Positions 16,298 to 59,800 of a DNA stretch of 64,000 nt are shown here, piece by piece. The notes beneath the pieces were generated by a model. It did not search any database. It was given only the letters and a program-made list of their open reading frames with translations, and was not told the DNA's origin. This DNA is from Sergeia podlipaevii (lineage: Eukaryota > Euglenozoa > Kinetoplastea > Trypanosomatida > Trypanosomatidae), in contig JASANZ010002183.1 in assembly GCA_030849805.1 (NCBI GenBank), positions 1-64,000 of the forward strand, given 5' to 3'. The position numbers and the translations under genes were made by a program. Each line of letters opens with the position of its first letter. Positions within the stretch are counted from its first letter, which is position 1.

Positions 16298-19200
16298 TTA
16301 CGTAGCAACAGCAGATACCGTTAATGATTCCATAAAATTCAACAGTGGCGCTGAAAAGTCAAAGGGCCGTACAAGATCCTGAGTCGATGACCAAAACTGT
16401 AGCGCGCTTCTCATAAACGTCTTCGGTGGCGCCGAATTGGGTGTGTCCGTCAACGTAGCAGCCATAACATAGACCATGTTCTTCACCGTTTCCTCCACCG
16501 CCTCACGCATTTGCGCTGCTTCATCCGCCAAACCAGCTGTGGAGGCTTCTTCTGGTGAGCTTGGGTACGCAGAGTACACCGCGTATAGTGTCCCAAGCAC
16601 CTTTCGCCACAGAGCCTGCAGTATCTCGGGTGCCTCGTCAAAGGCGGACGTGTACTGAAGTAGGGCCTTGGGCAAAAGGTTGATGACACGGCACTTGACC
16701 TCGATAGGGGCAATAGCAGACGAGGCTGCGCTCGCACATCCCGTTATCCCCACAGCGGCGCCATCCCGGCAACACGTGCAGAGACGGTCAACCAATGGGA
16801 ACAGCACCTCATCGTATACAGCGACGATAGCAGGGGCAGGGAACTCACGAATACCAGTGTCCAGAAGGGATCTCTGAAGGTTAAAGAGACCCTCTGTGCC
16901 ATCCCGCGCGGTCTGCGCGCAACACACAAGTGCGCAAAGACTCTTCAGTGAGAGTATCCACAACTTGTGCCAGTCAGCATCGCTGGAGGTAACCTGGCTA
17001 GCTCGGATGATGTTGCGGCTGCAGTAGCCAAGAATGTCGGCTGCGCTGCCATCCTCAAGGTGAGTGGGCGCCGCAATATTTAGCTGCACAGGAGCGCCGC
17101 CTACACATCCTGCTGGCTCAGCGTGGCGATGTCGTGACTCGCGAATAGCGCTCGTTGGCTGAGAGGAAAGGCACTGAGAGACTGGTGATATTGTATTCCC
17201 CCCATCTTGAGAGGCTTCTCGTGGGAGACATAGAGCTAGAGTCGCGTCGAGTATGCTCTCCGTGTGTGTCGCCACATCATACATGCAGTGCTTGGTGGTG
17301 TGGTAAACTATGGAACGTAGCTGCGGCACTGCATCGTTCTCGTATTCTTTTGGAGAAAGCCGTGTCACCACTGCAAATACAATCGACAGCAGGGTGTCAA
17401 CCTCGACAGACAGCGAAGCCGATGCCGCATATGCAGAAGCACCCGTAGAAACCGCATTGACCACTCTCTGGTTTTCCAGTCTCTGACAATGGCGAAGTAG
17501 CGCCTCATAGAGTGCAGCAGAGAGGATCGGGGCAATTGCGAGCGCAAAGGAACGCCCTCCCGGAGCACGCGTGATAAGAAGTGTGAGCGTCTGTTCCTGC
17601 AAAGAACGAAGAGCCCCGCTTGTGTGAGACACGCCGCTGTGTACAAGGCGCATAAGAAGACTGACCACTGCAGAGACCATGCGCTGTGCAACGGAGAGAT
17701 AATAATTGAACTCTCCAACGCTCAGCTCCGTGGACTGTTGTTGCTGGGAATCAACAAAGCGGTCTCGTCCCATGGTCGTTCGCTGTACAGACACTGGCTT
17801 CTCCAGCACCTTTAACGTCGGTATCAACTGCCTTTCCATACAGGAGAGAAGCATGCCCACTGTGCTGCTCATGCTGCTGTCATGGTGTTCATTACCCACA
17901 TCATGACCCTCACCACTACTGCTTCTGATGTTGGCCTCATTGGTGACGGGTGTGCACTCTGCGAGAGCCACCTCGGCCGCTACCGCACTCAGCACGTTTA
18001 TACCATACGATGCAAGGAAGCGTTCACGAAACGCTCTTGTCTGAAGAGCGTCCACTGCTGTGCACAACGCAGCCGCAAACCGTGCTGGAGCACCAGAATA
18101 ATTGCCGCTGTTCGCTGTATCCTGAGGTGTTCCCTGTGCGTGTGCCCAGAGACGATGATAGCGGGTGAGAGAGGCACCAAGAGAAGCCAGCAGCACGCGC
18201 GCGTCAGGGATGCATTCCTGCAATCGAGCATGCTGCACGAGCCGCTCTGCGCGTTGTGCCTTATCCTCCTGGGCTGCGTTGATAGCGCCGTTTCCACTAC
18301 CGAACAGCGAAGAAAACCACCCACCACCGCCTGAACTCCTGGCAGTCGCCGCAGCAGCTATGGTGCCATCAGGCCTGAGGTCGCCAGAGGACACAAAAAC
18401 AATACCAGGATCTTCGCACATCAGACCCGACACACATGCATTGGACGACGACAACGACGCTTCTTCAGTGGTGGTTGGCTTGCTCGCAACCATCCCAAGC
18501 ACATAGAGCTGAACAAGCAGATGCGAGAGCGGCTGCCAACTGTCTGACAAACAGCAGGTGACATCCACTGCAGATTTGTGTTCTCCACTGAGTCTTAGCA
18601 AAACAGAGAAGACCTCCTTCAATGTGAGCAGGGTTGGTAAACTTGTGTACACCATAGTGGCCACCTCATCAGCGACCGCAAATCCATCTTCAGCACCGCT
18701 GTGAGTCACGTTAATAAAAGAAAGACGAAAAAGAAGCTGGAGCACGCACTGGTCGCATACCTCCCACAATCCCAAGTCGCACGCTGCTTGTGCAAGACAG
18801 CCCACACCGGCCAATCCGGTCTCTAACGCAGCGAGCTCCATGGGGACTTTTCGGCGCACATCCTCGAGTGCATCACTTAGCGGTGATACGGAGGCAAGAG
18901 TCGAGGCAGAGCCACGCACACCTACGCGTGCAACAAAATCTGCTGCGTGATTGATCATACCACCAAAGACATCCAAGCACCGAGTCCACATTGCGCGGCA
19001 CACAAAACCTTCCACGACTTCCAGGGTCACATCTGCATCTGTCCTGCTGGTGCAGGCATGGTCAACTCCAGCGCCAAGCGTGAGATGGCTAAGCGTGTGG
19101 CTGTCCACGGACTCAATGCCGAGCGGTTCCATCGCCCAGTTCATTTCCAAGTTCCACGTAACATCATTGGAGAACCCGCGATTCATCATCTCCGCCATGA

Positions 19201-21958
19201 TGATTTCATGCTGTTTGACGTCCTCGTAAATCGCGCCAAGATAGTCCTCCGTCACACTCTTGCCACTATCGATGCCGCGGTTCATCATTTTGAAATCGCG
19301 GGGCCCCATGTGTTTGCGCATGCGGCCCGAGTGAAGGTCCGTGTTGAGCATAATAATCGCAAAGGACAGCACAAAAGCACCTGTTTCCGTTTCAAAGGGA
19401 TTGATAGCGAGGTCTACTCCTGGTGGGTTCTGTGCCATCCAGTGCTTGGCAAACGCTTCCATAACACGGTCAATTTTCTGAGACTCTCCCGGAAGGCACA
19501 AGCTGTACACCATCTCGCGAATCGACGCTAGTAGCGACTTGCCTGTAAAATTGAGCTGATGCACAAAGGCCTTGAGTTGCTCTTCGAAGAAGCGTATCGT
19601 GCCGGGCTTCAGGTGATCCGTCTCTCGTGTCTTCTCCCACTCCGCCAGCTCTGCCACTTGATCATCGGAGGGTTTCAGGATGGGGTCGCGGCCGAGATCG
19701 CCAATGTAGTCGCCTAGTGTGCGCTTGTCCAGCACCATGTTCAGTCGATACAAGCACTCTCCAACCTCAGCACCACCTGCTGGCTCAGCAAGCACGAGCC
19801 ATGTTTTGTACTGCGCCATTGCCGTGGCTTCCTGACCACGGGGTACACGCACCGCATGTTCAAGCAGGAAAACAACCCCCTTCTTTAAAGGTGATTCCTT
19901 GAAAAGGGCGGCAAACTGCTGAAGAAGCCTCTTCTGCTCTATCATGCCCTTGATCTGTGCTCCAACACGGCACGCTATCTCGCCGTGCTGCTGACCCTCC
20001 TCTGGTTGCACCTGCATATTATCCATAGAAGGCTTCACGGAGCTGCAACGGCGTGCACTACTCGCTCGTACCGCCAAGCCTGACACAAGATTGGCAATCG
20101 CGTCAAGAGCAGTCAGCTGCATGGAAGTGATACCCACAGCGCCGGATGAGGTCGATACGCCTGCTGGACTAGGTGACACCCCTCGGCTCCCAGAGCTCAT
20201 GCTCTGCTCCTCGATACGCCCAGCAAGAACAGAATTGTACGCTGCACCAGCAGCCCCACCAGCGACTGTACCCGCAAGTCCTTCAGCGCCGATTGCGATG
20301 CTCATGAGCACGTCGCAAATCTGAGGCAGCAGTGGTGCCCAGCGAAACGAAAGATCGTAATGCACGTAGCAGAAACTCGCAAAGCGGCTATCACTGCAAA
20401 ACTCAGCCAAACTCTCCAGAAGCAGCTCACGGCGCTCATGCATCTCAAGGATTTGCGCCTGCGTGAGACACGCCCTCTTCTTTTCAAACGCACCGCCAGT
20501 ACCAAGAGGGGACTGGGGCAAAAGCGCCGCAAATGTTGCGTTAACGCTCGCAGGTGGCGGGGAGGATGTTCCGCCAGGGGCACCGCCGCCAGGGCCCCCT
20601 CCTCCTCCTTCTATACAGCGAAGTTCCTCAGTAAGAGTGGCAAGCGGCACAAGGTGTAATGCCCGCAGAAAGGAAAACATCTGCCGCACCAACTGCCCAG
20701 AGGCACACTGGATCGCCAGGTGCACGGTACGTAAGATCTGCGAGAGCACGACCACATGCGTCGTGCGCACACCAGCAATGAGCAAGGCGCGGCTGAGATC
20801 ATCCTGAACGGCTCGGCGAAGTGGCCCGGCGGTCTGAACATCGTCGAGGCGATGTTTTACTGCCAGCAACGCAAACTGAGCCAAGTAAAGCCCCTCTAGC
20901 TGAATCGCAGTGCCACTGTCAGAGACAACTGCCACCTTCTGAGCGTAGGAAAGCGTCCCATTGTTCGGGGACCCCGTAAGGAGCACAGGAGAGCCTGGAG
21001 AGGTGGCGACGCTGTTTCCCCTCGGTGAGTCCGAGTTGACCTCTCCAACGCTGATGGAGTTGCCTGCCTCGTCAAGTGCGGTGATGTCGCCGCTTATAAG
21101 GGAACTAATGAACGCCAGCATGGGTGCGCCTGTTGGACGCCTTAATGGAGTACCACTGACAGCACTAGCTGCAACATCGTAATGGCCAGATCTATCCTTG
21201 CTTTCTGACTGTCCTCTTCTGCTGAGCGCCGCACCTACTCCTGCAGTGGGGGTATCTACAACACGCTTATAGAGCGTTGTGACAAGCGTATTCATGACAT
21301 TCTCGGCGCTGCGTTTGAGAAGCGGGCTCGCCTCGAGTCGCAGAGACACCACCAAGACACGACTAACAAGGCGAATATACGTCGCTTCAGGCATGTTTTC
21401 CGCCTCTCGGTGCCGCAAACACGCCGCAAAGACCGTTATCATGCGGCCAACAAGCACCTCATGCGAGACCGAGTCCGCAATATCACTGCGGGAATTCTCT
21501 GCGGCGTCAATGATTGTGTTTAAGCCATGTGCAGTAATGAAAGCGCACGGCGTTTCTACCATCGCGTGAAGCGCCGAGAGAGCGACGCTGGTGATCGTCT
21601 CGCTCGTGAGTGGACTGCGACACACCGTGCCAAAGGCAGATAGGATGGCTGACTCGGATGTCGTCTTGTCGTCTACGTCTCTGCCGTTGCTGCCGCCGCT
21701 ACTGCTTATACTATTGCCGCTGCCATCAGGGAAGACGCTGGTGGTGATGCTGGTAGCGGCAAGCACCTTCTTGCGAAGAGAGAGCATCATCTGCAGCAAG
21801 GGATGCCCCCCATTTTGTGGAGACAACTCAGAGAAACGAGTCTTGGAGCTGAAGCGCGTACTGGAGCGAAGCGCCAGCAATACATTTTGAATGTGCATCA
21901 GCACCAACTGCCTATCCACTTCCCATTGTGCAGCAGCTGGAAGAGGAGTCGGTGGCAT
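16298..21958 (-). CDS. Large Sec7-domain ARF guanine nucleotide exchange factor
   Basis: A 1886-residue ARF-GEF that loads GTP on ARF at Golgi or trans-Golgi membranes. A helical N-terminal region (DCB/HUS-like, about 1-650) contains a degenerate HUS element (HYDLS near 533). The pre-Sec7 linker has KKGVVFLLE and LDKRTLGDYIGD (about 692-754). The Sec7 domain lies at about 780-920 with the glutamic finger E825 in LCLPGESQKIDR, plus MLNTDLHS (870-877) and MMNRGIDSGK (891-900). A long helical C-terminal region (HDS-like) follows. The size and layout fit the BIG/GBF1 class. A Gly-rich loop at 451-463 and several Ser-rich loops interrupt the N-terminal half. The Sec7 motif uses FA rather than YS at the brefeldin-sensing pair. 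The start ATG at 21958 lies downstream of a long pyrimidine tract. Confidence 0.95.
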   Translation of the reverse strand: MPPTPLPAAAQWEVDRQLVLMHIQNVLLALRSSTRFSSKTRFSELSPQNGGHPLLQMMLSLRKKVLAATSITTSVFPDGSGNSISSSGGSNGRDVDDKTTSESAILSAFGTVCRSPLTSETITSVALSALHAMVETPCAFITAHGLNTIIDAAENSRSDIADSVSHEVLVGRMITVFAACLRHREAENMPEATYIRLVSRVLVVSLRLEASPLLKRSAENVMNTLVTTLYKRVVDTPTAGVGAALSRRGQSESKDRSGHYDVAASAVSGTPLRRPTGAPMLAFISSLISGDITALDEAGNSISVGEVNSDSPRGNSVATSPGSPVLLTGSPNNGTLSYAQKVAVVSDSGTAIQLEGLYLAQFALLAVKHRLDDVQTAGPLRRAVQDDLSRALLIAGVRTTHVVVLSQILRTVHLAIQCASGQLVRQMFSFLRALHLVPLATLTEELRCIEGGGGGPGGGAPGGTSSPPPASVNATFAALLPQSPLGTGGAFEKKRACLTQAQILEMHERRELLLESLAEFCSDSRFASFCYVHYDLSFRWAPLLPQICDVLMSIAIGAEGLAGTVAGGAAGAAYNSVLAGRIEEQSMSSGSRGVSPSPAGVSTSSGAVGITSMQLTALDAIANLVSGLAVRASSARRCSSVKPSMDNMQVQPEEGQQHGEIACRVGAQIKGMIEQKRLLQQFAALFKESPLKKGVVFLLEHAVRVPRGQEATAMAQYKTWLVLAEPAGGAEVGECLYRLNMVLDKRTLGDYIGDLGRDPILKPSDDQVAELAEWEKTRETDHLKPGTIRFFEEQLKAFVHQLNFTGKSLLASIREMVYSLCLPGESQKIDRVMEAFAKHWMAQNPPGVDLAINPFETETGAFVLSFAIIMLNTDLHSGRMRKHMGPRDFKMMNRGIDSGKSVTEDYLGAIYEDVKQHEIIMAEMMNRGFSNDVTWNLEMNWAMEPLGIESVDSHTLSHLTLGAGVDHACTSRTDADVTLEVVEGFVCRAMWTRCLDVFGGMINHAADFVARVGVRGSASTLASVSPLSDALEDVRRKVPMELAALETGLAGVGCLAQAACDLGLWEVCDQCVLQLLFRLSFINVTHSGAEDGFAVADEVATMVYTSLPTLLTLKEVFSVLLRLSGEHKSAVDVTCCLSDSWQPLSHLLVQLYVLGMVASKPTTTEEASLSSSNACVSGLMCEDPGIVFVSSGDLRPDGTIAAAATARSSGGGGWFSSLFGSGNGAINAAQEDKAQRAERLVQHARLQECIPDARVLLASLGASLTRYHRLWAHAQGTPQDTANSGNYSGAPARFAAALCTAVDALQTRAFRERFLASYGINVLSAVAAEVALAECTPVTNEANIRSSSGEGHDVGNEHHDSSMSSTVGMLLSCMERQLIPTLKVLEKPVSVQRTTMGRDRFVDSQQQQSTELSVGEFNYYLSVAQRMVSAVVSLLMRLVHSGVSHTSGALRSLQEQTLTLLITRAPGGRSFALAIAPILSAALYEALLRHCQRLENQRVVNAVSTGASAYAASASLSVEVDTLLSIVFAVVTRLSPKEYENDAVPQLRSIVYHTTKHCMYDVATHTESILDATLALCLPREASQDGGNTISPVSQCLSSQPTSAIRESRHRHAEPAGCVGGAPVQLNIAAPTHLEDGSAADILGYCSRNIIRASQVTSSDADWHKLWILSLKSLCALVCCAQTARDGTEGLFNLQRSLLDTGIREFPAPAIVAVYDEVLFPLVDRLCTCCRDGAAVGITGCASAASSAIAPIEVKCRVINLLPKALLQYTSAFDEAPEILQALWRKVLGTLYAVYSAYPSSPEEASTAGLADEAAQMREAVEETVKNMVYVMAATLTDTPNSAPPKTFMRSALQFWSSTQDLVRPFDFSAPLLNFMESLTVSAVAT

Positions 21959-23383: not shown

Positions 23384-26300
23384 CTATCTCTTGCTATTCT
23401 CGCCAATGGTCTGTATAAGGGATAAGATAGCCCCCTCTACCCATCGCTTCTCCTTAGACTCCCCGCCGCGCCGCTGAGCGGCAAAAGCAGCTGCATCTGC
23501 CTCCTGTCTCTCGTTGAGTAAAAAAGCTATCAATCGCTCTATCGGCACCTCCTGCTCGCAAGGAAGCAAGCAGCGCTCCATCACCTCCTTACCGTACTTT
23601 GCAGTAATGGCCTCGCTAGACACAAACTCAGGCGGGACCTCTTTCTCTTGCGTGGCGAGTAGATCACGCGAGCGCTGCAGAAGAGCACGCTGTGCATAGG
23701 GGTAGCAAAATTCTCGCCAGCCAATGCCACAGCCCGACTTGGTCACGTCTAGAGACTTCTTCCATTGCTGAAACGCCTCTCGGTTAGGCAGCGGCTTGCC
23801 GTGGCTCCACTGGTAAAAGGTATCAATTTTCTCATCGTTCAAGCAGCCAACAATTCGTGGGTTAAGCGCGACCCACGCACCACGCAAGCCCTCCAGCTCA
23901 CGACTGTTGAGGCCGCGGCAATACGGAGCGTCCTCGCATTTTGCGGCCGCCTCGCTGATGGACGCGAGAATGTCATCCTTGTTTGGTAGAAATCGCTTCC
24001 TGGTGTATGTCTGGAAGAGGCGGTGAAGAGCCTCTGGAGAAAGCGCGCCAGCTGCCTCCATGAAAGCCTCGAGCTTTGCGTATTGCTTCTTCTGCAGTTG
24101 AATCATATCCCCTGTTCCCTCAGACTCATCAGGGGTGAGCATGCGGGGGTCAATTGACGACGACGTCACATAAGGGAAGTGAATCGTCATCAGTTCATCG
24201 CATGTGAGTGGACCCCTTCCAGAGATCAACCTTGCGTACTCCTTCGTGAGACGCTCCCCGAAAACTTTCTCTAAAAAGCTGACCGCGTCACGTCCCTGCA
24301 AGGTCATCCCCGGCTTGTCGCAGACTCGCTTGACCATCTCACGCACCACCTCCGCCTCGCGGTACGTGATAGGAACAACTGGGGCATGCGGGTCGCTCCT
24401 AAAGGAACGGCGCAGACGCCCGGTGCGTGAGATTTGTCTAAACCTCAAGCAGTAGAGCATGTTCAACATCGGTATAAGAACAAAAATAAAACCGCAGATG
24501 ATCGCCATCACGCCAATTGGCATGTAGTTCCTCGAGACGAATTCAAGAAAGCGTACTTGGCACGCATTCACAAAAATGTTACTCTCACACGCAGAAGGAC
24601 ACTCTGAGGAGTTGGTCATGAAGCAACCAGCATTATACCCGCTGCAGCTCAGCTCCTGCTGAATCGTGCAGATGTAACCGCTCCGCCCCTTCTCGATCGT
24701 GTTCACCCACAACCTTCCAAGCGAGTTGGAGAAGGCCACAGAGTCACTGTTTAAATGAGCCCAGAGAGCAAAAGTACCAATCGCAAAGAAGCCCATGCTG
24801 CATATAAAGAGCACCGCCGCACACACCACGCACCAAGCAAACCAGCGAAAGAGTGCACTGCAGAGGTTGGCAATGGATGCAGTGTAGGCGACCACGCCAA
24901 TGACAATGCTCGCAATAAAAATTTGAAGACCAAAAATAAACTCAATGGGGATATAAACAACGCTAAAGATCAGCATCAGCGATGTGATCACAATGGCTAC
25001 CACACAAAGGCAGCAGAGGACATTGTAAATAAAGGAGTCAAAGGGGCGAACATTTAGCACCTCGCGCGGCCGTGGTTTCACGCACTTGTAGTACACCACC
25101 ATGATCACCACAAAGGCAATGACAGCGACACACGATACCACACTTGCGATTGCGGCAACTTGGCCCTTGTTGTACTGAGGAGAGTGAGGGGAATCATCCA
25201 CGGGCCACGTAATCTCCGACCGATTAGTTGGGTCGCCAATCCGTGCACCGTTGTTGTTCCTCACATCAGCCCCCTCTGCCTTCTTCAGTGAATCCACCGC
25301 CGCAGACCCGATGCTGGTTGTGCACGGGGTGTATCCCGGCTCCAACGATTCAAAGCACGCAGGAGGATCTTCCTCGCATGTAGTGCTCTCCCGACATTCG
25401 TTAACTGAGAAGGACATCGTCACTGTATACACCTCGCCTCGCCAGTCGGGTCGCACGTAGGGGGTGTTGTCATGTACAGAGGCGCGAATCACCGTTGGGA
25501 AAGTCCAGCTCGAATAGTCTTCCACGCGCAACTGCGCGACATCGGTGGCAAGTGTAGAGCCATCAGCGGCGTACCACCTCACAAAAACATCGTCCTGCTC
25601 GGCAAAAGGCCCAACTGAAAGAATGAGGTCCTCTCCGCTGCCGGGGATGACGCACACGGCGCGGTTTTGTGGCGGGCATCTGCCACTCGCCAAGTTGATG
25701 CGTGCGGTGGAAGGGCTACGCAGGAGACTATTCGCCACTCCGTTGTCAAACAATGCGCTGTTGAGTGTCTCACGGCAAACAGGGCACATCGCACTGACTG
25801 TACTGTTGCGCATGAGGCAGTCGTTCGTTGTGGGAGCAACAAAATTGGAAAAACTGCAGCCGTGTCCAAGAAAGCCCGTAATCGGAGACCCACCGGCAAA
25901 GGGCTTGTCATCCCAGTAGGACCACTGCTTGACCTTCTCAGAGTTGGGTAAACCACAGTTAGGACCGCCAAAGTCAGCGGCAGCATCGTGCTCTGCAAAG
26001 CCAAGGCTGTACTCCTCATGAAGCTCGGCAATCGCGCGGTTGAGGTAGTGGATAAAGAGAAAAACCATGAAGTCGGGGTCATTTGTGATGTACGCAACGC
26101 CGTTGCTGGCAGTGCCGGAGGGTTCGGCGTCGTTGACGATCACGACCGCGATGTCTTGCTCGGGACCATAGGTGGCTAACTCAAGCACAGAGTTGATGTT
26201 GCAGAATATTAGGTGTGGGTTGGGGGAGCCAAAGGCGCAGCCAAGGTTGTTGTTGACGTTGCGAGCCTTGCAATCGTGCATGTAACTGCAGTCATGCACT

Positions 26301-26647
26301 CGCTCCACGATGCGACTTGCACCAGCATCCACAGAGTACTGATACACCGCATACACATTAAGAAGCATGGCGTAGCGTGGCCATGGATCAGAAACAATAC
26401 CTGCTGAGACGTTATATAAGCCACCAACGCACGTGCGCACATCTCGAAGGAAGATCTCCTTGTCCTGATACCCAGAGGATAAAAACGTGATGGATCGTGT
26501 AGAAACAGGTGGGTCGAAAGACTGGATCGTAATCAGAGTAGGTGGGTCACTTGATACTTGTGCGGAGGCGGGGGCATTGCTAACACATGCAACTAACAAA
26601 GAAAGCAGCACAAACGCGTACACTCGCGGAAGCCCTGAAACCGTCAT
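23384..26647 (-). CDS. Membrane protein: degenerate M64-peptidase ectodomain plus tetraspanin-like bundle
   Basis: 1087 residues from the ATG at 26647; an in-frame TTG at 26659 is not used here. A signal peptide covers about 1-30. The ectodomain follows the M64 (IgA-peptidase) pattern: SSGYQDKEIFLRDV, LLNVYAVYQYSVDAG and VVIVNDAEPSG. Where the family has HExxH then a DEY-type motif, this protein reads HYLNR (200-204) then EEY (211-213) with identical spacing. The catalytic Glu and second His are therefore missing, and peptidase activity is unlikely. Cysteine-rich sequence continues to ~445. Five membrane helices follow (about 497-521, 540-566, 569-596, 598-631, 708-734). The last four, with a six-cysteine loop at 632-706, resemble a tetraspanin. 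Positive residues flank the predicted cytosolic ends. A ~350-residue cytosolic tail with weak EF-hand-like stretches ends the protein. It is probably a surface or endomembrane receptor-like protein; no ligand is known. Confidence 0.85.
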   Translation of the reverse strand: MTVSGLPRVYAFVLLSLLVACVSNAPASAQVSSDPPTLITIQSFDPPVSTRSITFLSSGYQDKEIFLRDVRTCVGGLYNVSAGIVSDPWPRYAMLLNVYAVYQYSVDAGASRIVERVHDCSYMHDCKARNVNNNLGCAFGSPNPHLIFCNINSVLELATYGPEQDIAVVIVNDAEPSGTASNGVAYITNDPDFMVFLFIHYLNRAIAELHEEYSLGFAEHDAAADFGGPNCGLPNSEKVKQWSYWDDKPFAGGSPITGFLGHGCSFSNFVAPTTNDCLMRNSTVSAMCPVCRETLNSALFDNGVANSLLRSPSTARINLASGRCPPQNRAVCVIPGSGEDLILSVGPFAEQDDVFVRWYAADGSTLATDVAQLRVEDYSSWTFPTVIRASVHDNTPYVRPDWRGEVYTVTMSFSVNECRESTTCEEDPPACFESLEPGYTPCTTSIGSAAVDSLKKAEGADVRNNNGARIGDPTNRSEITWPVDDSPHSPQYNKGQVAAIASVVSCVAVIAFVVIMVVYYKCVKPRPREVLNVRPFDSFIYNVLCCLCVVAIVITSLMLIFSVVYIPIEFIFGLQIFIASIVIGVVAYTASIANLCSALFRWFAWCVVCAAVLFICSMGFFAIGTFALWAHLNSDSVAFSNSLGRLWVNTIEKGRSGYICTIQQELSCSGYNAGCFMTNSSECPSACESNIFVNACQVRFLEFVSRNYMPIGVMAIICGFIFVLIPMLNMLYCLRFRQISRTGRLRRSFRSDPHAPVVPITYREAEVVREMVKRVCDKPGMTLQGRDAVSFLEKVFGERLTKEYARLISGRGPLTCDELMTIHFPYVTSSSIDPRMLTPDESEGTGDMIQLQKKQYAKLEAFMEAAGALSPEALHRLFQTYTRKRFLPNKDDILASISEAAAKCEDAPYCRGLNSRELEGLRGAWVALNPRIVGCLNDEKIDTFYQWSHGKPLPNREAFQQWKKSLDVTKSGCGIGWREFCYPYAQRALLQRSRDLLATQEKEVPPEFVSSEAITAKYGKEVMERCLLPCEQEVPIERLIAFLLNERQEADAAAFAAQRRGGESKEKRWVEGAILSLIQTIGENSKR

Positions 26648-27884: not shown

Positions 27885-30338
27885 CTACCCTTCTCTCGTT
27901 TGCGTCGTCGTGGTAATATGTCCTGCTGCCACGCCGTTTGGAGTCCACTGCAGTACTAAAGGCGCATCCGCCACGAGTACCTCAGGCGCAAACATCAGCT
28001 CGCACACAACATCAAAGCGTTCCTCCCCTTCCTCGACAAACCTTGTGCAAGACAAGATGCGCACGGCCTGTCGTACATTCCGTGTGTACAAGATGGGCTG
28101 CAGTTGCTGCGTGATTTGCTGCGCGAGAAGCTGCACACGAGCGCAAAACATCCGTGTTGGGCGTGGAGCAACAACAGCAGCAGCACCGCTGCCATTGCGT
28201 AACTGCGGAAACACGCGATGGTGATGGGAAGGAGGTTGCAGTAACAACTTTCCTTTCCGAGTGCAATCAATGGCATCTGGCAGACAGTCCAGCGCAAAGG
28301 TGCACTCATCGTGGGTCAGTGCCTCATTGACGTGCGCGCCGTCAACGTGTACACCACGAATCACACAATCGTGAAACTGTCCGGCATCATCGGGGCCTAC
28401 GAGGCACGCACTGCCCACACGCACAGCGCCAGCTGTGACTCGGCCACGCACAACAGGGCCCACATCCTTTGCAATGAAGGCAAAATCAATGAAAACTTCG
28501 AACCCACGCTCACGCGGCTGATACGCCAGCACCTGCTGCTGCTGGTGCTCCTGCTTTTCTTGTTGTTGTTGATCCAGCTTTGCATGGGGAAGGGAAGAAA
28601 GGAAGCCGCGGAGAGTGTCCAGGCCCGTTCCAGTGACCGATGACACACACAGTATCGGCACACAACCCCTTTGTTCCTTCGCATAACCACTATGAAGGTT
28701 CACATTTCCCTGCTCACAGTAATCAGTTGCCATGGCTGGCGTCTCTACTACTTCGCACGCACAACCAACGCGGTCAAGCTCAGCCGCGAGTTCCATGAGG
28801 AAGCTGTCCACTTCGAAGTCCTCGAGTAGATCGCACCTCGTCACGACCACAAAAAACTGGATGCGAACCGCCAGGCACAAGCTCGCGTACACCGACACAC
28901 CGTCGGGTGGGACATCCGCAGCGACGCAGATGCACACAAATTCTGGACTGCGGCTCATGAGACCAAAGAGCATGCTCTTGCCCATGTCACCCCCCGTGTC
29001 CATCAAAGTAATGGAACGCTTCGGCTGCACAGCATGCTGGTGTGTTGCACCGTTGCCAAGCGTCCTGCAATGAGTCTCAGAATTGGGACTTGTATGGCGG
29101 CTGCTACTGTTATGTTCACCACCGCTGCTGCCACCGCCGTGATGCTCCGACAAAGATATGTTTGACGAAAGTCCATCGGAGCTCACCGCGCGAGCGACGC
29201 ATGAAGAAGAAGTCTTTGATATCATGTTTTCATGCTGCAATATAAACTCCTCTTGTTGCTGCTGCTGATGTTGGTGCATAACGTCACCGTCCTCAAGAGG
29301 CCACACACGAGTCGTGATACTCGTAGTACGACCCGAGTCGACTTCGTGTTTGTGATTAAACAGCAACTGTCGCACAAAACCATCGCCGTCATCGAGTGTA
29401 GAACTGAGTACGACGCTCATCAGAGTTGACTTACCACTCCTAATGGCGCCACAGAAGGCAACGCGGATATCGTGCTGCTGCTGCATAGAAGTAGCTGCGT
29501 GCCGTCGTGTTACGAGTATTTCGCCACACACAAGGCGGCCAGCGCTGCCAGTGGCGGTTGCGTGTGAGGTACGACTTCTCGAAAAGCTCACTTTCGAAGC
29601 GGTTGGAGCCACTGCATGATCTTCATGGTACTGTCTTGCCTCCTTGGCGTTCCCTTTACCGTTTTCATTGTCTCCCTCAGGCATAGTTGCCTCGCGCACC
29701 ACACAACGTTGTAGTACCGTACAGTCAAACTGCAGCGCATCCGCCATGCGTGCAATCGTCCGCACTGATTCGCCAAATTCCTCTTCAGATATGCCCCGTG
29801 GCACGCCATCGTCGGCCACGCCGAGCTGGTACAGACACTGTCCGCTTCCTTCCGTGACGCGAAACTGCATCTGCGTAACTAAATGCTCAAAGCGTGTATC
29901 TGAAATGCCAGTAAGACGCCACTTATACTCCACGTCGCCTTCGTCATCCTCAGCGGCGAGTCGCTCACACCCACAAGAGGGCGGCGGGGCAACCGTTTCC
30001 GCCGTCATAGACTGTCGTTGTTGCTGCTGCTGAGAAGGTGTCTTCTGAAGGAAAGGATCACCATTGTAAGGAACAGCCCTGGATGGAGAAAGTGGTATGT
30101 TTGCTGCCGCATCAGTGGCAGTATTGTGCTTCATAGATGACAAAACGGTACAAGCGGCACCGGCTGGAAAGGGTGTAAGCCGACGAGACGCGCTGAAGCA
30201 TGACACACGGTGCACGAGAGCATCGCGTGATGCAGCAGCAGCGGTGGGGCTCACGGGACTTGTTATTGTAGGCTCATTCTCGTTGAAAGCGCGGGTGTCC
30301 GCGCAGTCACGTATTCGGAATCCCTCTCTTCGAGACAT
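27885..30338 (-). CDS. GTPBP1/GTPBP2-like translational GTPase with degenerate G3 motif
   Basis: An 817-residue protein of the GTPBP1/2 (GP-1) branch of elongation-factor-type GTPases, which act in ribosome rescue or mRNA surveillance in animals. The family's N-terminal domain is clear at 138-212 (EYKWRL, FEHLVTQMQFRV, YQLGVADDG). The G-domain has G1 GAIRSGKS (297-304), G2 region HEVDSGRTTS (331-340), G3 DTGGD (447-451), G4 TRCD (500-503) and a G5-like SSVTG (566-570). A beta-barrel domain II starts near 612 (FEVFIDFAFIAKD). The usual His after DxxG is Asp, and G4 has Arg for Lys. A ~90-residue His/Gln/Ser-rich insert (350-440) separates G2 from G3, and a Gln-rich insert follows G5. GTP binding is likely but hydrolysis is doubtful. 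The N-terminal ~130 residues look disordered. Confidence 0.9.
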   Translation of the reverse strand: MSRREGFRIRDCADTRAFNENEPTITSPVSPTAAAASRDALVHRVSCFSASRRLTPFPAGAACTVLSSMKHNTATDAAANIPLSPSRAVPYNGDPFLQKTPSQQQQQRQSMTAETVAPPPSCGCERLAAEDDEGDVEYKWRLTGISDTRFEHLVTQMQFRVTEGSGQCLYQLGVADDGVPRGISEEEFGESVRTIARMADALQFDCTVLQRCVVREATMPEGDNENGKGNAKEARQYHEDHAVAPTASKVSFSRSRTSHATATGSAGRLVCGEILVTRRHAATSMQQQHDIRVAFCGAIRSGKSTLMSVVLSSTLDDGDGFVRQLLFNHKHEVDSGRTTSITTRVWPLEDGDVMHQHQQQQQEEFILQHENMISKTSSSCVARAVSSDGLSSNISLSEHHGGGSSGGEHNSSSRHTSPNSETHCRTLGNGATHQHAVQPKRSITLMDTGGDMGKSMLFGLMSRSPEFVCICVAADVPPDGVSVYASLCLAVRIQFFVVVTRCDLLEDFEVDSFLMELAAELDRVGCACEVVETPAMATDYCEQGNVNLHSGYAKEQRGCVPILCVSSVTGTGLDTLRGFLSSLPHAKLDQQQQEKQEHQQQQVLAYQPRERGFEVFIDFAFIAKDVGPVVRGRVTAGAVRVGSACLVGPDDAGQFHDCVIRGVHVDGAHVNEALTHDECTFALDCLPDAIDCTRKGKLLLQPPSHHHRVFPQLRNGSGAAAVVAPRPTRMFCARVQLLAQQITQQLQPILYTRNVRQAVRILSCTRFVEEGEERFDVVCELMFAPEVLVADAPLVLQWTPNGVAAGHITTTTQTREG

Positions 30339-48737: not shown

Positions 48738-49913
48738 TTATTTGTCGCTGTCGCTTCCCAGTGATGTCGGTTCCCTTCTGAAGGAGCAGTGCGCAGACTT
48801 GAGTAAGTTTGCAGATGACGCCAGGCTGTGACTCGTATCCACGCAGGAAACAAAAGCAACAGTTACGTTGTCCGTGGATCCTCGATAAACTGCTTCATCC
48901 ACCAGCTTTTCTGTAATCTCTCGAGGATTGAATCCTTGGTTGAGGAACTGAAGGCAGATTTCTACGACTTCTTGATACTGCATCACATCCCACAGGCCAT
49001 CACAGCCCATGACAATAAATGAATCGTGTGGTCCCAGCTCGATGGTACACGTGTCGGCCTCAGCGATAACACCAGATGGCTTACCCTCCGTGAACTCTGC
49101 AAGCTTGAAGCCGGCGTCGCCAATCGTACGCGATACAGCAAGTGTGCACGCACGCTGACTAAATTTAGGATGGCCGACTCGGTTACTAACGATGCGGCCG
49201 CCAGCAGCGATAACACGAGCGGCCTCAGCAGGGTTTCTGCGAGGACTGTGCCTCACCGTCAGCGGCACTGGCGCACCGTCGCGGCACAGAATTGCCTCAC
49301 AGTCTCCAACATTGCCAACTACGAGCTTACTTCCAACAATAACAGCAACTGTGCAGACACTACCGGAGTGCTTCTTGTCCTCGTCGCACTGGTCTAAGAA
49401 TATCCTGTCCGCCTCTAAGATAGACTCTCGGATGGCCTTCTCGGGATCAGTGAGAATGTCAGAGTGGCCACGAATCATTTCGTGAAGATTATCGCGCAGG
49501 TACTCCGCACAGTGAGAGCCACCATGACCGTCGTACACGCCAAAGAATGGAATACCATCTGAAAGCATAATGTGTTGGTCTTCCATCGTCTTGCGCGTGC
49601 CCTGCTCGGCGGTTACAGCAAACTCATGCGCACGCCAGGCACACATGCGTTTGCGTGCCACGTCAGAAAGACCGCTCACGTCACTCTGCGAGTCTGCTTC
49701 GGTGCTAAAGCCAGAACAGCCATCCATCTGTGGTTTCCTTTCACAGCAGGGAAACTCGATCTGATAAGGTGTCGTGAGTCCTCCGCCATTCAGGAGCAGC
49801 TCCGTAAAGGGAGAGCAACCACTGGCCTCACAGAGGGTGCTGATGCTCTTATTTACAGTGCAATCCTGAAGCATTTCTTCTTGCTGTGATTGTGGTAATA
49901 TGTTAATCTCCAT
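48738..49913 (-). CDS. Protein phosphatase 2C (paralogue 1 of 3)
   Basis: 391 residues from the ATG at 49913. The frame continues upstream, but that part is encoded by the pyrimidine tract and lies before the splice acceptor. A ~95-residue N-terminal region precedes the PPM/PP2C serine/threonine phosphatase domain (about 96-360). Metal-site and core motifs are intact: TMEDQH (109-114), FFGVYDGHGG (123-132), VGDCEAIL, TVRHSPRRNP, AAGGRI, SRTIGDAGFK, MGCDGLWDV and GSTDNVTV. It should be an Mn2+/Mg2+-dependent phosphatase. The substrate is unknown. It is the most divergent of the three clustered paralogues in the C-terminal half. Upstream and downstream spacers are unusually long. Confidence 0.95.
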   Translation of the reverse strand: MEINILPQSQQEEMLQDCTVNKSISTLCEASGCSPFTELLLNGGGLTTPYQIEFPCCERKPQMDGCSGFSTEADSQSDVSGLSDVARKRMCAWRAHEFAVTAEQGTRKTMEDQHIMLSDGIPFFGVYDGHGGSHCAEYLRDNLHEMIRGHSDILTDPEKAIRESILEADRIFLDQCDEDKKHSGSVCTVAVIVGSKLVVGNVGDCEAILCRDGAPVPLTVRHSPRRNPAEAARVIAAGGRIVSNRVGHPKFSQRACTLAVSRTIGDAGFKLAEFTEGKPSGVIAEADTCTIELGPHDSFIVMGCDGLWDVMQYQEVVEICLQFLNQGFNPREITEKLVDEAVYRGSTDNVTVAFVSCVDTSHSLASSANLLKSAHCSFRREPTSLGSDSDK

Positions 49914-51936
49914 CTGTGTATATCTTCTATACGATTTGGAGAGAGAAGAAAAAGAAAAAAAAAAAAGAAAGGGGGTGGTGTGCGGAGAGGCTCTCACTTT
50001 TCTTAATAATATGTACTTTTGCTTTTTTCAGAGAGTGGCCAAACGATGAAGAAAGAAACCTCACCGCACTGTGCGACCTACGATATATATATAGATGTAC
50101 GCCCACTTCCCCTATTCTTAGATACTTACTGTAGTTATTGATTTAAAGAAAAAAATGAGGTTGGAACTCCTCCCAAGTTTACAATGTTTCTTCTTTTTCG
50201 AAATATAAAACAAGTCAAAGGCAAAAATCACTTGCGTGTGTGTATATATATATATTTGCTGCTTTGTTCAAAAAGTTGTATTTATTTTTAAGAAGAGAAA
50301 AAACTTACTAAATAAAACAAGCAAAAAAGAAAGAAAGAAACGTGATTTTTTTTTTGTTTAAAATAAATTAACAAAGAAAAGGAAAAAAAAAGGAGGTAGA
50401 AAGATAACGATAGCACGCAAATACTAGATGAACAGCAAGCTCCACAATGAGCAACATTTTTCTTTTATGAAAGAAAAAAAATGAAAGACATGGCATACCC
50501 ATCTTCAGAAGCATTGTTAATCAGCGCGTCATGATCATACTCACATATATGCTTTACGTGTGCATGTTGACGTTTTGTTGTTTTGTTGTAGTTTTTGTAT
50601 TGAAACAGTTCTAGCGCCACATCACAGCAAAAAAAAGGAGACAGGATAAATACACGCTATCCAAACAGAATTTCTAGTACAAGCATCAACGCATATATAT
50701 ATAAAAGAGACTATCCCTCTCACCGCCTCTTTTTCTCTTTATGTTCTCTGTCTCCATTTTCTTCCTACCCCCACCCCCTCCCCTCATGGAGTAGACCCTC
50801 CATCACTATCCTCGTCAGATCCATCTACTTTCCGCTCATCAGTAACTGTCAACACACACACGTGCATTCACACATTAGCGTTGCCAAGGGGGTTCCGGGT
50901 AGTGCGCACACAAACGCAGCAAAGGGAAAAGCGAGGCAAGTGCGTCGACAATCACCACCTACGTGTCACCAGTGCGCGTTGAGGAGATAGAAAAAAAAAA
51001 CTAGCACAGAATCTCAGTTCGCCACAACATCAAAAAGAAAGATATATACACTCATGCATGACTTATCAGATCAAAAAAGCATACAACATAAAAGGTTTCT
51101 TGAGAGAGAAGAAGAAAAGGGGAGCTTGGTCTAAACAACTCTCAAATATGAAAGGAAAAGATAATATATAAACGAAAAAAAAAGCGCAACGCACAAGGCC
51201 TCTCTTAGAAAAGAAAGGAAGATTGAGATATAAACAATTCATACTGTAAGCTTACTACTACTCTTAAAAATCCCAACAAAAAAAAAAACGTCCCCTTCTC
51301 ATCATCATATAGACGGGACATATATGACAGTCCTTAAATATATGAAACAAAACGTCCTCTACGTTAATTACGTACAACGCACAGGAAAACATACTAGGAA
51401 TGACCATTTTTTCATTACACAGTACATCAGTACCGGATGCAATAAAAAATGAAAAGATAGGAAAGAGAGGTTTAGCAAAAAATAAACATATATATATAAT
51501 GAAGCACCACAACGATACATCTCCTGGAAAAAAAAAACAGAAAAAAAACAATACCATCATTTTCTAGTTGCTCATGGTATTTCCCTCCTCCCTCCCCTCT
51601 CCCCTTCGTTCTACCATGTAACTCACCAACGGACCGTACAAACAGTAATATGCCACCCACGAGCTCTCCTTTTTTTTTTCCAATCACCATATCTTCTCAC
51701 CTGCATAAAAAGAAAAAATGAACACCAACATTCAAATTCCTTTCAGACGTAGCGGTTGTAGCTCCTTTAGAGGATCGCAAACGTTACATAAACGCAGAAA
51801 AATTGATATCTGTGTATATGTTTTCTTAATAATAATAATAATAAACAAAAAAACATATACTGACTCATCGTGGTCAACTTCTTCACCGTAGATGCACCCC
51901 ATTCACGATTAGCCAGCCGGTTATCCTCCGGTATGA
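49914..51936. other. 2.0-kb spacer between PP2C paralogues 1 and 2
   Basis: No firm gene. The left end holds the splice signals of paralogue 1. A more complex island at about 50784-50985 contains a 27-codon minus-strand frame (stop at 50784) with an acidic C-terminal half. It is preceded on the coding strand by a T10 run near 50991-51000. The rest is AT-rich with A-runs and AT repeats. Confidence 0.4.
49927..49975 (-). promoter_or_regulatory. Candidate trans-splice signal of PP2C 1
   Basis: A ~38-nt tract of T and C on the coding strand (49938-49975) is followed by the first AG at 49928-49927. The ATG at 49913 is 13 nt away. It decides the start of paralogue 1 against the longer open frame. 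Confidence 0.55.
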
Positions 51937-52896
51937 CTACAGCTCATCGTGTTTGGAAAGCATGTCACTCATGTCGCGGCTAGAGGTGGATACAGCGGCA
52001 TCAGGAATAATATCACATCTACTACTACTACCATGACCGCGACCAGGCTTCAGTCGAACTATCATCGCAGTCACGTTGTCAGTGCTGCCCTTGGCGATCG
52101 CGGCCTGGGCAAGCTCCTTCGCGATGGACTGGGCAGAGTGACCCTTCTGGAAGCGACGACCACAAAAGTCAACCACCTCGTCGTACTTCATCACATCCCA
52201 AAGACCATCGCACCCAATCACAAAGAATTCGTCCTCTTCAGTCAACTTTGTCGTGCTAATATCAGGGTCTGCTATGATGCCTGATGGATTTCCGTCAGTG
52301 TACTCCTCCAGCTTGAAGCCCGCATCGCCGATTGCACGCGTGACCGCAAGGCTAACTACGCTGGGATTGAACTTGGGGTGCCCTACGCGATTGTTAAAAA
52401 TTCTGCCGCCCGCAGCAGTGACACGCTGCACCTCAGATGGATTGGATCTCAAGCTGTGTTTCACCGTCAATAAGATAGGCGTGTTGTTTCTGGACAAGAC
52501 CGCTTCACAATCGCCGACATTGCCAACAATCAGCTTATCCTCAATAATCAACGCCACTGCACACACGCTGCCAGACTCGTTCGTCTCTACTTCGGAGCGT
52601 TGGAGGAACGCCCTGTCTGCCTCAACAATAGATTCCCATACAGCCTTTTCAGGGTTCGTACGGATTTCAAGGTGGCTGAGGATCATTTTATGCAGGTGAT
52701 CGCGCAAGTACTCTGCGCATTGCGTACCGCCGTGGCCGTCGTACACACCAAAAAATGGAATACCTTCAGATATCATCACGTGCTGGTCCTCCATCGTTCT
52801 CCGGGAGCCTTGCTCCGCGGTCACAGCAAACTCATGCGCACTCCAGCGGCGCGAAAGCGTCTTCTCCTTCCCAGGCATATTGTTACACTGTGACAT
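51937..52896 (-). CDS. Protein phosphatase 2C (paralogue 2 of 3, mosaic)
   Basis: 319 residues from the ATG at 52896; the frame opens upstream with a GTG at 52950, which is not preferred. An ATG at 52878 is a further option. The N-terminal region before the domain is only ~20 residues. PP2C motifs are complete: TMEDQH, FFGVYDGHGG, VGNVGDCEAVL, TVKHSLRSNP, AAGGRI, TRAIGDAGFK, IGCDGLWDV and GSTDNVTA. A ~45-residue Ser/Asp-rich tail follows. The domain's opening AHEFAVTAEQG matches paralogue 1. Its C-terminal half is nearly identical to paralogue 3, also at DNA level (52070-52578 against 54936-55444). A Mn2+/Mg2+-dependent Ser/Thr phosphatase activity is expected. Confidence 0.94.
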   Translation of the reverse strand: MSQCNNMPGKEKTLSRRWSAHEFAVTAEQGSRRTMEDQHVMISEGIPFFGVYDGHGGTQCAEYLRDHLHKMILSHLEIRTNPEKAVWESIVEADRAFLQRSEVETNESGSVCAVALIIEDKLIVGNVGDCEAVLSRNNTPILLTVKHSLRSNPSEVQRVTAAGGRIFNNRVGHPKFNPSVVSLAVTRAIGDAGFKLEEYTDGNPSGIIADPDISTTKLTEEDEFFVIGCDGLWDVMKYDEVVDFCGRRFQKGHSAQSIAKELAQAAIAKGSTDNVTAMIVRLKPGRGHGSSSRCDIIPDAAVSTSSRDMSDMLSKHDEL

Positions 52897-53291
52897 GAGT
52901 GTAAGAAGGTCTCCCTTAGAGGCCCTAATGACAATTGTAGTACCAAACACACTACTAACGTAGCAATAGAGCCAAAAGTAAAAAAAGCACGTGGCAAAGG
53001 GGGGGAGGGGGGAATTGCCGCAACAACCTGAGGATTTCTAGTACTGTGTGGGCTTCCTCAATAAGATATAAAGCGAACAGCTACCTAAGCAGAGAAGGGG
53101 GTAAAAAAAAAAAAAAAGGAAGCAAATGTAATGCAAAAAAAATAAAAAAAAAATGCTTAACGCGCGTTTGGGTGTTTGAAAAAAAAAAAAAATTGCTGTA
53201 TATATGTGTGTGTTTCTTATGAATTGCCTAATGGAAACACATAAAAGAAGACACTTTTCGTACTTAATCATGCAGAGATGAATGAATTAAA

Positions 53292-54892: not shown

Positions 54893-56056
54893 TCACCTTC
54901 CGCTATAAAACTTCTTCAGCTGCACCACCATGGCCGTCACGTTGTCAGTGCTGCCCTTGGCGATCGCGGCCTGGGCAAGCTCCTTCGCGATGGACTGGGC
55001 AGAGTGACCCTTCTGAAAGCGACGACCACAAAAGTCAACCACCTCGTCGTACTTCATCACATCCCAAAGACCATCGCACCCAATCACAAAGAATTCGTCC
55101 TCCTCAGTCAACTTCGTCGTGCTAATATCAGGGTCTGCTATGATGCCTGATGGCTTCCCATCAGTATAATCCTCCAGCTTGAATACAGCATCGCCGATTG
55201 CACGCGTGACCGCCAGACTAGCTACGCTGGGATTGAACTTGGGGTGCCCTACGCGATTGTTAAAAATTCTTCCGCCCGCAGCAGTGACACGCTGCACCTC
55301 AGATGGATTGGATCTCAAGCTATGTTTCACCGTGAGCACAACGGGAACATCGTTTCTGGACAAGACCGCTTCACAATCGCCGACATTGCCAACAATCAGC
55401 TTATCCTCAATAACCAACGCCACTGCACACACGCTGCCAGACTCATCCGTATCTGGTCCAGTACGTGACAGAAAGGCCTTGTCTGCCTCCACAATGCTCC
55501 TCGAGATTGCCGCTGTTGGATTAGTCAGCAAGTCAAGCTGACTGAATATTGACACATGAAGATTTTGACGCAAGTACTCTGCACATTGCGTACCGCCGTG
55601 GCCGTCGTACACACCGAAGAATGGAACCGCGTGGGAGAGCATAATATGCTGGTCCTCCATCGTTTTGCGAGAGCCTTGCTCCGCCGAGACCCCAAAATCA
55701 ATTACAGGAAACGGGGTCCTAAGGTTTGCTGCGTGAAGACGCTCGATCGCAGCCGTATATAGCTGCTCACGCTCACACGCCACCGTTGGGTTCGCGTCCA
55801 ACGCTGCTCCCTGTGACTCCTCCTTGTGGTCTCTTAAAGCATGCTGCTGAGCAGACCCTCGAGGTGTCGTCGTCATTTCTGCCGCTGCCGCAGGCGCGGA
55901 TGGCGGCACGCCGAGCTCTGAAGGATGTTTAAGTGGATCAAATGCATTTTCTGTATTCGCCGCTGGAGCGGGTTTTGCTTTGGGGGTAATATTGCGTCTC
56001 CGCATTGCCGACGCAGTGCTCCTCTCTGGGGTGGTATTGACTGGAGTATCGCTCAT
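54893..56056 (-). CDS. Protein phosphatase 2C (paralogue 3 of 3)
   Basis: A 387-residue PPM/PP2C phosphatase. A ~118-residue Ala/Pro/Thr-rich N-terminal extension (likely disordered) precedes the catalytic domain (about 119-383). Motifs are intact: TMEDQH (132-137), FFGVYDGHGG (146-155), VGNVGDCEAVL, TVKHSLRSNP, AAGGRI, TRAIGD, IGCDGLWDV and GSTDNVTAMVV. The usual glycine after TRAIGDA is Val (AVFK) here, unlike paralogues 1 and 2. The domain opens VIDFGVSAEQG, different from the AHEFAVTAEQG of the other two. The protein stops soon after the domain without the tail of paralogue 2. The start at 56056 follows a good splice acceptor at 56080-56081. Confidence 0.95.
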   Translation of the reverse strand: MSDTPVNTTPERSTASAMRRRNITPKAKPAPAANTENAFDPLKHPSELGVPPSAPAAAAEMTTTPRGSAQQHALRDHKEESQGAALDANPTVACEREQLYTAAIERLHAANLRTPFPVIDFGVSAEQGSRKTMEDQHIMLSHAVPFFGVYDGHGGTQCAEYLRQNLHVSIFSQLDLLTNPTAAISRSIVEADKAFLSRTGPDTDESGSVCAVALVIEDKLIVGNVGDCEAVLSRNDVPVVLTVKHSLRSNPSEVQRVTAAGGRIFNNRVGHPKFNPSVASLAVTRAIGDAVFKLEDYTDGKPSGIIADPDISTTKLTEEDEFFVIGCDGLWDVMKYDEVVDFCGRRFQKGHSAQSIAKELAQAAIAKGSTDNVTAMVVQLKKFYSGR

Positions 56057-56899: not shown

Positions 56900-59800
56900 C
56901 TACACAAAGCCTCCACTCACTAATCCAGGTTGCAGCGCGGTCCTTGCCTGAAGCAGACGCATGCACGCCAGCATCACCGGCTCCGTCGGCTTGCTGCAAT
57001 GTAAATCTAACTCTTCCCAGCAAGAACAAAAAAACTCGTGCGCGCAGGCTTCCTCCATAGAACTCGGTAGGTTGGGACACACAGTGAAGAGCGTCTCACG
57101 TGGCATCACAAGCATAAAAGTCGACCTCCGCTGTAACATCAATACGCACTGCAGTCCGACCACGTGGAGCAAATAAACCCACTCACTCCACGCGCGCGCA
57201 GACCCCGCAACTCCAGTGGTAGACGCATCTCCCGCGCTTTCTTCCTCTCGCACGAAGCGCTTGCCGGTCTGGAGAGGCGCGCGGCTTGCCTTGAACACGT
57301 CGGTAAAGCACTGACCCTTATAAGGTGCATATCGCTCGGAATCTATGTGGGCAACACGTTCCCTAGCGGAACAAAACAACTCCGCTTGCAGCTCCACACA
57401 CTTGCTCCTAGCATCAGCCATCGCAGCAAGAAATGACCCATAACGCTCGCGAATAAGGCCCTTGCAGTTTTCGTTGATGCTTGCTAGCGATACACCAGTT
57501 TGATCGCCATCGGCAGCACCGCTGAAGACAAACTCCAGCAGTACCCATGAATAAGGATGCACTAGCAAGTACTCTACTGGATAAGCGGTCTCTGATACAC
57601 TGGAAGTGAACGGTGACGGTGAGGACGAACCAGTGGGCTCGCTGAATGCAGAGGCATCAGTCGCATCAAGCAACATCATCAATCCTTCTACATCACGAGT
57701 CTTCATGTAATACCACGCCAGAGCTAGCATAACGCGGCGCAGCGAGCGACAAAGTCGCAAAGAGGTCTCACGATCAGAGCGGCAAAGTCTCATAGCCCGT
57801 TGGTGGCGGCCCAGGAGCCCTGCTGAGGTCAACGGGGCATCACACAAGGTGCTTTCGTTGGTTGAGACGCAAGGCGCAGCCAAACAGCTGAGAACTGTCT
57901 GACGCACCAGAGAAATGAGCGAGTACACCCGAAGTGCAGGGGCAAGCAACACCGTGGTCGTTGTGGCCGCAGCGGGTGTGTGATGCAGTTCCGTCCAGCC
58001 AGCGGTGCGCTTATAGCGCACAATATCCACCATACCCGTCTGTTGAATCTCGTGCGCAAGACCTGCAAAGAGTGGGGGCTGCCGCCCAGACACCCTGTTG
58101 GGGCTTGCAGACCTAGGCGCGCCTGCTCCTGTTCCGGTCGCGACCGTCGCGCTCACATTCGCCGTTGGAGGACTAACGAGTTCATTTGTCCCGGCTTCTC
58201 TTGGTACGCATGCGATGAAATCAACGCACGCGCGCAGCAGCACGTCTACTACGCCGCTCTGCAGGAGTTCCGGTGTGTAGTCCAGCTCGGTCACGAGAAA
58301 CTGAAGCGACTCGCACGCCAGCTCCAGCAAGTGCGGAGTGTCCATGCAGGAGAGAAGCATGCTTTTGAGAGCGACATAGACAAGGAGGCGATAATCAAAA
58401 CGGTCAAAACCAAAGTCTCTATCTGTCGCGGCGGTAACCGGAGAGGGCACCGGTGTACTTTGTGAAGCGGATGTGCTCGCCACGGCCTCTTCGGCAGTCT
58501 CCGATGGCATTGCTTCCGCGCCAAGTCTGGGGGAAGATTGCAGGATCAACGCCTTTGTGATAGGTCGAAGCATACCAACAAAAAGTGCATCCTGCACATC
58601 AGTAGCAAACACGCCGCCGTACTGTTTGAGAAGGGCCCATATGCTACACACCGCATGCGCTCGCACACGCGCCGAGGCGTGCATGACCACGATTGAGGCA
58701 AGCCCTTCCAGCAGAGGCATCCATAAATGATACCGAGTCTTGCTGAGCACATGTTGGGGCTTCTCTAGACGATTCATAGAGGTCAGTGGCTCCGTGGCCA
58801 GCGGCACACGCAAAAAACTTTTTCCTATGCGCTGCGCAGCCGCCGCCTCGTGCTCTGCGGATCGAAAACGACCTGCCCAACGCACAATAGTAGCTGGATC
58901 CCGCACGTCACGTGGTGGGGCTTCGAGTCCGTACTGAAGCCAATGAGCGCACGCCACCAGATATGAAATAGCGGTTAATGGAATAGTCTCATCCACGCTG
59001 TCAGAAGATGAAGTTCCCACTGCTGATGTCGCGCCGCCAACGCGCGCAGACGACGATGAACGCAATAGTGTTGATGGTAGCGGCGGCGGTGGCGAGTTGT
59101 AAGATGTGCTACCAGCTGATGATTTTATTGCCTTTTCCCCATCCACACTTTCTGCTGCTGCCGCCGCCGCTGCTGCGTCCTCCGCTCTTACTCCCTGAAT
59201 AGAAGCAAAAGACGTTAGGCAAAAAATAAGATTACCAAAGTACTCGCGTGCGCTCTCAAGATGAAGCCGCAAAACTCGCTCGCACACCTGCCAGGCGTGT
59301 GGCCCAACTACTGGAATGCCAGCAGCGTGGCTGAGGCACGAAAAAACCACGCTCCAGCCACTGACAAGGTGCCCAGCACGAAAGTCAATGAGCTCTGCCA
59401 CAATATCGATGACGCGACAGCGTATCTGCACGTCATGATTGGACATCAGAATGGCCTCAAACGGCCGCAGCATTTCACGCTGAAAAGAATAGTTAAGGAG
59501 CTCGCCGCGCATCTGGTACGTGAGTGCAATAAGACGCAACCCGTCAAGCGTGGAGTTCGCAATGTCGCTGTCACGGTTGACCGCTGCAATGATAAACACC
59601 GCACTCGCCTCCGTCCACAGTTCACGCCACTGCAGGCGACTAGCAGTGGAGGCACAGATCGCCACCACATCAAACAACTTCGTAAGAGAAAAAGTACGGT
59701 TGCACTGCAGCTCCTTCCGGCACACCTGCACCAGCCCGTTGGCCATCTGCAGTTGCGTTTCCACTGCGTACTGCGTCACATCATAAAGCTGATCCAACCA

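Follow-up and report, generated by a model that had tools for sequence, protein, structure and literature searches.

What becomes of a metallopeptidase domain that has lost its catalytic site and shares a single polypeptide with a tetraspanin-like membrane part? The question is raised by a gene of the trypanosomatid Sergeia podlipaevii in positions 1 to 64,000 of contig JASANZ010002183.1 (assembly GCA_030849805.1), a stretch of 64,000 nucleotides that we call the window. Here, a 1087-residue frame with an ATG start and no interruption occupies 23384-26647 on the minus strand, and we refer to its product as the fusion protein. A first-pass annotation, made from the letters alone, had noticed a dead M64 ectodomain and a tetraspanin-like bundle in one chain, an observation that our analysis bears out; of the three outcomes that the annotation named as refuting it, none did so. 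From sequences and structure models, we take the protein to be, probably, a conserved membrane pseudopeptidase of kinetoplastid type that acts as a receptor or scaffold and whose catalysis was lost after the fusion. The family considered comprises the fusion protein and 16 homologues (n = 17), collected by protein searches that scored only the candidates sharing most words; 12 of its members share the altered motif and form a clade. The gene is laid out as follows:

23384-26647, minus strand: whole gene, pseudo-M64 domain, extra membrane helix, tetraspanin-like bundle and EF-hand-like tail, 1087 residues (open frame, 16 homologues)
26558-26647, minus strand: putative signal peptide, residues 1-30, placed by position (hydrophobic 1-31; helix 6-23)
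25691-26530, minus strand: M64 (igalysin) pseudopeptidase domain, about residues 40-319
26036-26050, minus strand: lost HExxH, H200 Y201 L202 N203 R204 (of these five, all but N203 are invariant across the 12-member clade)
26012-26017, minus strand: E211, in the third zinc-ligand position (Asp replaced by Glu), and E212, the Glu of the structural-zinc site, from alignment columns and the roles in ThomasA (PMC12402451, PMC12237041)
25775-25819, minus strand: Met-turn C277-L-M279 and structural-zinc cysteines C277, C288 and C291 (conserved in 17/17)
25394-25675, minus strand: beta-sandwich-like domain, residues 325-418 (model strands; the ThomasA alignment extends to model residue 434)
25169-25342, minus strand: disordered stalk, residues 436-493 (predicted local distance difference test below 50; residues 419-495 with 16% mean identity, 16 homologues)
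25079-25168, minus strand: first membrane helix, residues 494-523 (hydropathy and model helix)
24407-25045, minus strand: tetraspanin-like four-helix bundle, residues 535-747
24560-24751, minus strand: large extracellular loop, residues 633-696, containing six cysteines and a CSG motif (alignment of 17)
24164-24376, minus strand: EF-hand-like pair 1, residues 758-828
23651-23917, minus strand: EF-hand-like pair 2, residues 911-999

The ectodomain matches M64 by both profile search and predicted fold, and the igalysin catalytic-domain fold is present, in agreement with the M64 scaffold first proposed for it. In active M64 peptidases, the motif HExxHxxxGxxD binds zinc through both His residues and the Asp, and its Glu serves as base and acid (PMC12402451). 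The 12 corresponding positions of the fusion protein read HYLNRAIAELHE, in which the base, the second His and the Gly are lost and the Asp is replaced by Glu. Because HExxHxxxGxxD is absent, we classify the ectodomain, by its sequence, as a non-peptidase M64 homologue and not an M64 enzyme. Across the family, 12/17 members carry HYL[NS]R and have Glu or Asp as the third ligand residue, 3/17 carry RELSK with Ser in that position (source names T. grayi, T. melophagium and T. theileri), one (P0012) has HQLNH with Asp, and one (P0015) retains the intact motif HELNHAVGGLGDE (HELNH..GLGDE). The first-pass annotation had reported the loss of the catalytic Glu and second His, and had allowed that a relative with an intact motif might betray a sequencing error; P0015 is such a relative, yet the altered motif is common to 12/17 members, so it is no sequencing error. 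The same comparison corrects two database names, as the proteins of Angomonas deanei (P0005) and Trypanosoma melophagium (P0009) labelled M64 peptidases both have broken catalytic motifs.

Could the protein still cut, through an unusual site that dispenses with the HExxH ligands? H200 and the acidic residue 211 do remain in it, and an Asp to Glu change at the third ligand is reported for two M64 clusters (PMC12402451), but the general base and second His are lost, the first His is also lost in 3/17 members, and one sentence of PMC12402451 describes a cluster, CL-X, of 11 Trypanosomatidae proteins (PF09471) as lacking the M64 catalytic residues, so that we consider residual peptidase activity very improbable.

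Named sources account for four of the 16 homologues (A. deanei, T. grayi, T. melophagium and T. theileri), and none of the 16 bears the name of T. brucei, T. cruzi or Leishmania, in searches that scored only the top word-sharing candidates. An NCBIfam search returned chance-level matches only.

What, then, has the domain kept? In IgA peptidase, a structural zinc is held by E551, C606, C616 and C619, of which C606 opens the Met-turn (PMC12402451, PMC12237041). The equivalent residues of this site and of the Met-turn, E212, C277, M279, C288 and C291, are kept in 17/17 members as judged by sequence only. For comparison, a scan for bacterial M64s gave at least 119 stretches, in which there were 120 pattern matches, 82 of them long enough and 68 non-redundant; these were picked by motif pattern, which makes their HEFGH...DEY columns invariant by selection. 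C277 is found in 66/68 of them, C288 in 59/68 and C291 in 66/68. Because the structural set is complete in 17/17 members and the catalytic motif is broken in 16/17, the residues of a putative fold-stabilising zinc site have been retained while the catalytic residues went. Cysteines 137, 149, 231 and 264 are likewise invariant in 17/17 members and are absent from most bacterial M64s, consistent with added disulfides. At the former catalytic site, R204 co-occurs with an acidic residue at 211 in 12/12 members, and K204 with Ser in 3/3; a natural guess is that an R204-E211 salt bridge took the place of the zinc.

The same alignment bears on whether the ectodomain is merely decaying after catalytic loss. 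Of the 271 M64 positions compared in the 12-member clade, 23 show no variation. Five of them fall in residues 200-205 (HYL[NS]RA), which puts this stretch at the top of all six-residue windows. The 12 members were selected for this ranking by H, Y and R, and a tree made after removal of these columns groups exactly those 12 as well; the ranking includes the N-terminally truncated P0006, which causes most positions before about 115 to be counted as not invariant, and without it there are 36 invariant positions and still no window above residues 200-205. Because no other six-residue stretch of the domain varies as little in this clade as HYL[NS]RA, its sequence record reads as one of re-use, not decay. 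The broken catalytic motif in 16/17 members would count for decay, but long open frames persist across diverse homologues, the substituted motif is nearly invariant in the clade, and the M64 domain, with a mean identity to the fusion protein of 43% (16 homologues; 16% for residues 419-495), is about as conserved as the tail at 45% (15 homologues). We find decay hardly credible.

The membrane part matches tetraspanins in predicted fold, with four helices in tetraspanin packing in the model, and the PF00335 cut-off is passed by homologues P0007 and P0012, and not by P0015. In the large loop, C668, S669, G670, C675, C683 and C696 are invariant in 17/17 members, and C660 and C687, a predicted disulfide pair, are jointly lost in 3/17. 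Foldseek matches of the membrane part to G-protein-coupled receptors and immunoglobulins were set aside for their low scores. Elsewhere in the genome, contig C549 (L003:1459-2478, minus strand) holds a stand-alone tetraspanin-like open reading frame (ORF) of 339 residues whose loop signature, C-x-LQ...CSGY, resembles that of the fusion protein. In the tail, with its two putative EF-hand-like pairs, a PROSITE-type pattern for the canonical calcium-binding loop matches 0/17 members, and relaxing the pattern yields a single loop in each of P0003 and P0012 and zero in the fusion protein; the calmodulin-like tail is probably blind to calcium. P0014, whose C-terminus diverges as if frameshifted, was excluded from the tail alignment.

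Did the fusion or the loss of catalysis come first? In a tree built on the M64 domain and rooted on an outgroup of 34 bacterial M64s (every second of the 68), P0012 and P0015 are sister to the other 15 members. The clade of 15 has an ultrafast bootstrap support of 97, and of 94 after removal of 14 motif columns, and the 12 HY members form a clade with a support of 98 with or without those columns. P0015 shares the layout of the fusion protein, in a single chain of 1212 residues: its M64 match has an E of 6e-22 and its tetraspanin match one of 1.6e-6 (28.4 bits, under the 32.1 cut-off), while its EF-hand match, at 0.022, is weak. Because P0012 and the intact P0015 are sister to the other 15, the fusion seems to predate the catalytic loss, and the simplest reading of the sequences is that catalysis was lost at least twice, once along the stem leading to the 15 and independently in P0012, where Glu became Gln; an alternative history, in which the intact motif was regained, seems far less likely. 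These two proteins also differ at the N-terminus: the M64 anchor starts at residue 249 in P0012 and 241 in P0015, versus 12-128 in those 14 other members in which the anchor could be located, leaving about 200 extra residues (about 35-240) between signal peptide and M64 in a prodomain-like position. The P0012 extension holds a His-rich stretch, and when the two extensions were compared by profile with the N-terminal regions of 72 bacterial M64s, a comparison weak in that it had two query sequences, nothing was found.

The combination of a non-cutting metzincin domain, a flexible stalk, a tetraspanin-type platform and a protein-docking tail argues for a receptor or scaffold, and pseudo-metzincins acting as receptors have a precedent in ADAM22-LGI1 (PMC11266112). 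In such a protein, the former substrate cleft, re-set by the conserved HYL[NS]RA and perhaps by the R204-E211 salt bridge, would bind a protein ligand and leave it uncut; the tetraspanin part would pack the receptor together with membrane partners, and the tail would dock cytosolic proteins with no need for calcium. The binding and signalling roles that the first-pass annotation suggested are likewise putative. The ancestor would have been an M64 protein with an intact motif, already in one chain with tetraspanin and tail, in which catalysis was lost later, at least twice. A more specific proposal, which we put forward tentatively and with some doubt, is that the family represents an in-cis kinetoplastid counterpart of ADAM10-TspanC8 of independent origin, with the zinc exchanged for an Arg-acid pair, a cleft selected for ligand binding and a calcium-blind tail, P0015 being of the still-active ancestral type.

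The receptor or scaffold reading has several results to contend with. The fusion protein itself scores 21.8 against PF00335, below the curated cut-off of 32.1, and Foldseek is weak for both its membrane part (best tetraspanin E 0.14) and the comparison of its tail model with the EF-hand-like fold (best E 0.1). A CCG motif in the large loop is a tetraspanin hallmark, in place of which 17/17 members have CSG. P0012 and P0015 are single metagenome contigs and sit on a long branch, as a result of which long-branch attraction to the bacterial outgroup is possible. That the five helices evolved convergently as a membrane anchor and are no true tetraspanin strikes us as a distinctly unlikely explanation.

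The protein might instead regulate another peptidase or surface protein, or chaperone its trafficking, in the manner of iRhoms and dead metacaspases, with no outside ligand to receive. Pseudopeptidases of other families do work as regulators and chaperones (PMC11266112), and TspanC8 tetraspanins promote the trafficking and maturation of ADAM10 (PMC4751363), but the species' own genome has one single PF09471 match and hence shows no active M64 cousin, and a chaperoned partner would have to be of another family; we judge this role unlikely. No second copy of the fusion protein was seen in the 23.4 Mb of that genome by protein, PF09471 family or tail searches.

The surroundings of the gene, like its four named homologues, agree with a kinetoplastid origin. 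All 17 listed window ORFs of at least 250 residues lie on the same strand as the fusion gene, and polypyrimidine runs occur upstream of its start; same-strand genes with such upstream runs are typical of kinetoplastid gene clusters. The upstream neighbour (27885-30338, minus strand, 817 residues) has a modest translational-GTPase match, E 3.4e-7, over residues 416-579 only. Three protein phosphatase 2C genes stand in tandem at 48738-49997, 51937-52950 and 54893-56056 (minus strand). Two ORFs of the 64 kb window, at 16298-21958 and 56900-63991 (minus strand), contain Sec7 domains, one with a weak GBF1-like repeat match and the other with Mon2/BIG-type HUS and HDS domains, and both are likely ARF exchange factors. 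The exact kinetoplastid spliced-leader consensus was not found in the assembly, where a 19-base piece of it gave one match only, with two mismatches; the spliced-leader array is probably missing from the assembly or variant.

How does the fusion protein compare with known systems? The first-pass annotation did not know of a description of the combination, which holds for the M64-tetraspanin fusion, of which the open-licence literature gave no description among the matches listed (titles and abstract starts), but not for catalytic loss in trypanosomatid M64s, which is in print. Because PMC12402451 already states that loss, what is undescribed in the open-licence papers searched is the combination alone. 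The dead site is already known; the architecture, its conserved structural zinc residues, the tail and the relative with the intact motif appear to be new to that literature. The main text of PMC12402451 has 0 occurrences of 'tetraspanin', and a term search of a review of inactive metallopeptidases (PMC11266112) gave no mention of M64. CL-X is very probably the same protein family as ours, and to its description in PMC12402451 we add the intact-motif relative and the structural zinc pattern.

With the M64/igalysin enzymes (BF3526, BACOVA_00663, ThomasA/IgAse), the fusion protein shares the catalytic-domain fold, the Met-turn and the structural zinc residues (Glu and three Cys), but it lacks HExxHxxxGxxD and has a tetraspanin-like membrane part and an EF-hand-like tail. 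Like tetraspanins (CD81, CD9, peripherin-2/ROM1, uroplakin Ia/Ib), it has a four-helix bundle with short and long outer loops, the long one Cys-rich, and it differs from them in having CSG instead of CCG, a helix and ectodomain in front and a 340-residue tail behind. ADAM22, ADAM23 and ADAM11 similarly use a dead metzincin domain as a cell-surface receptor, a function that the fusion protein would share; they belong to family M12 and have disintegrin domains and a single membrane helix. ADAM10 with TspanC8 tetraspanins (e.g. Tspan15, PDB 8esv) also partners a metzincin-fold ectodomain with a tetraspanin, but as two chains with an active enzyme, whereas our proteins, which belong to a different family, have one chain and a broken site in 16/17 members. 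Because no other single-chain metzincin-tetraspanin was found in the open-licence literature, among the matches listed, the fusion protein may serve as a natural model of metalloprotease-tetraspanin pairing. Its family also forms a graded series, from intact motif through single change to full replacement with the fused membrane machinery constant, which makes the conversion of a membrane peptidase into a receptor directly testable.
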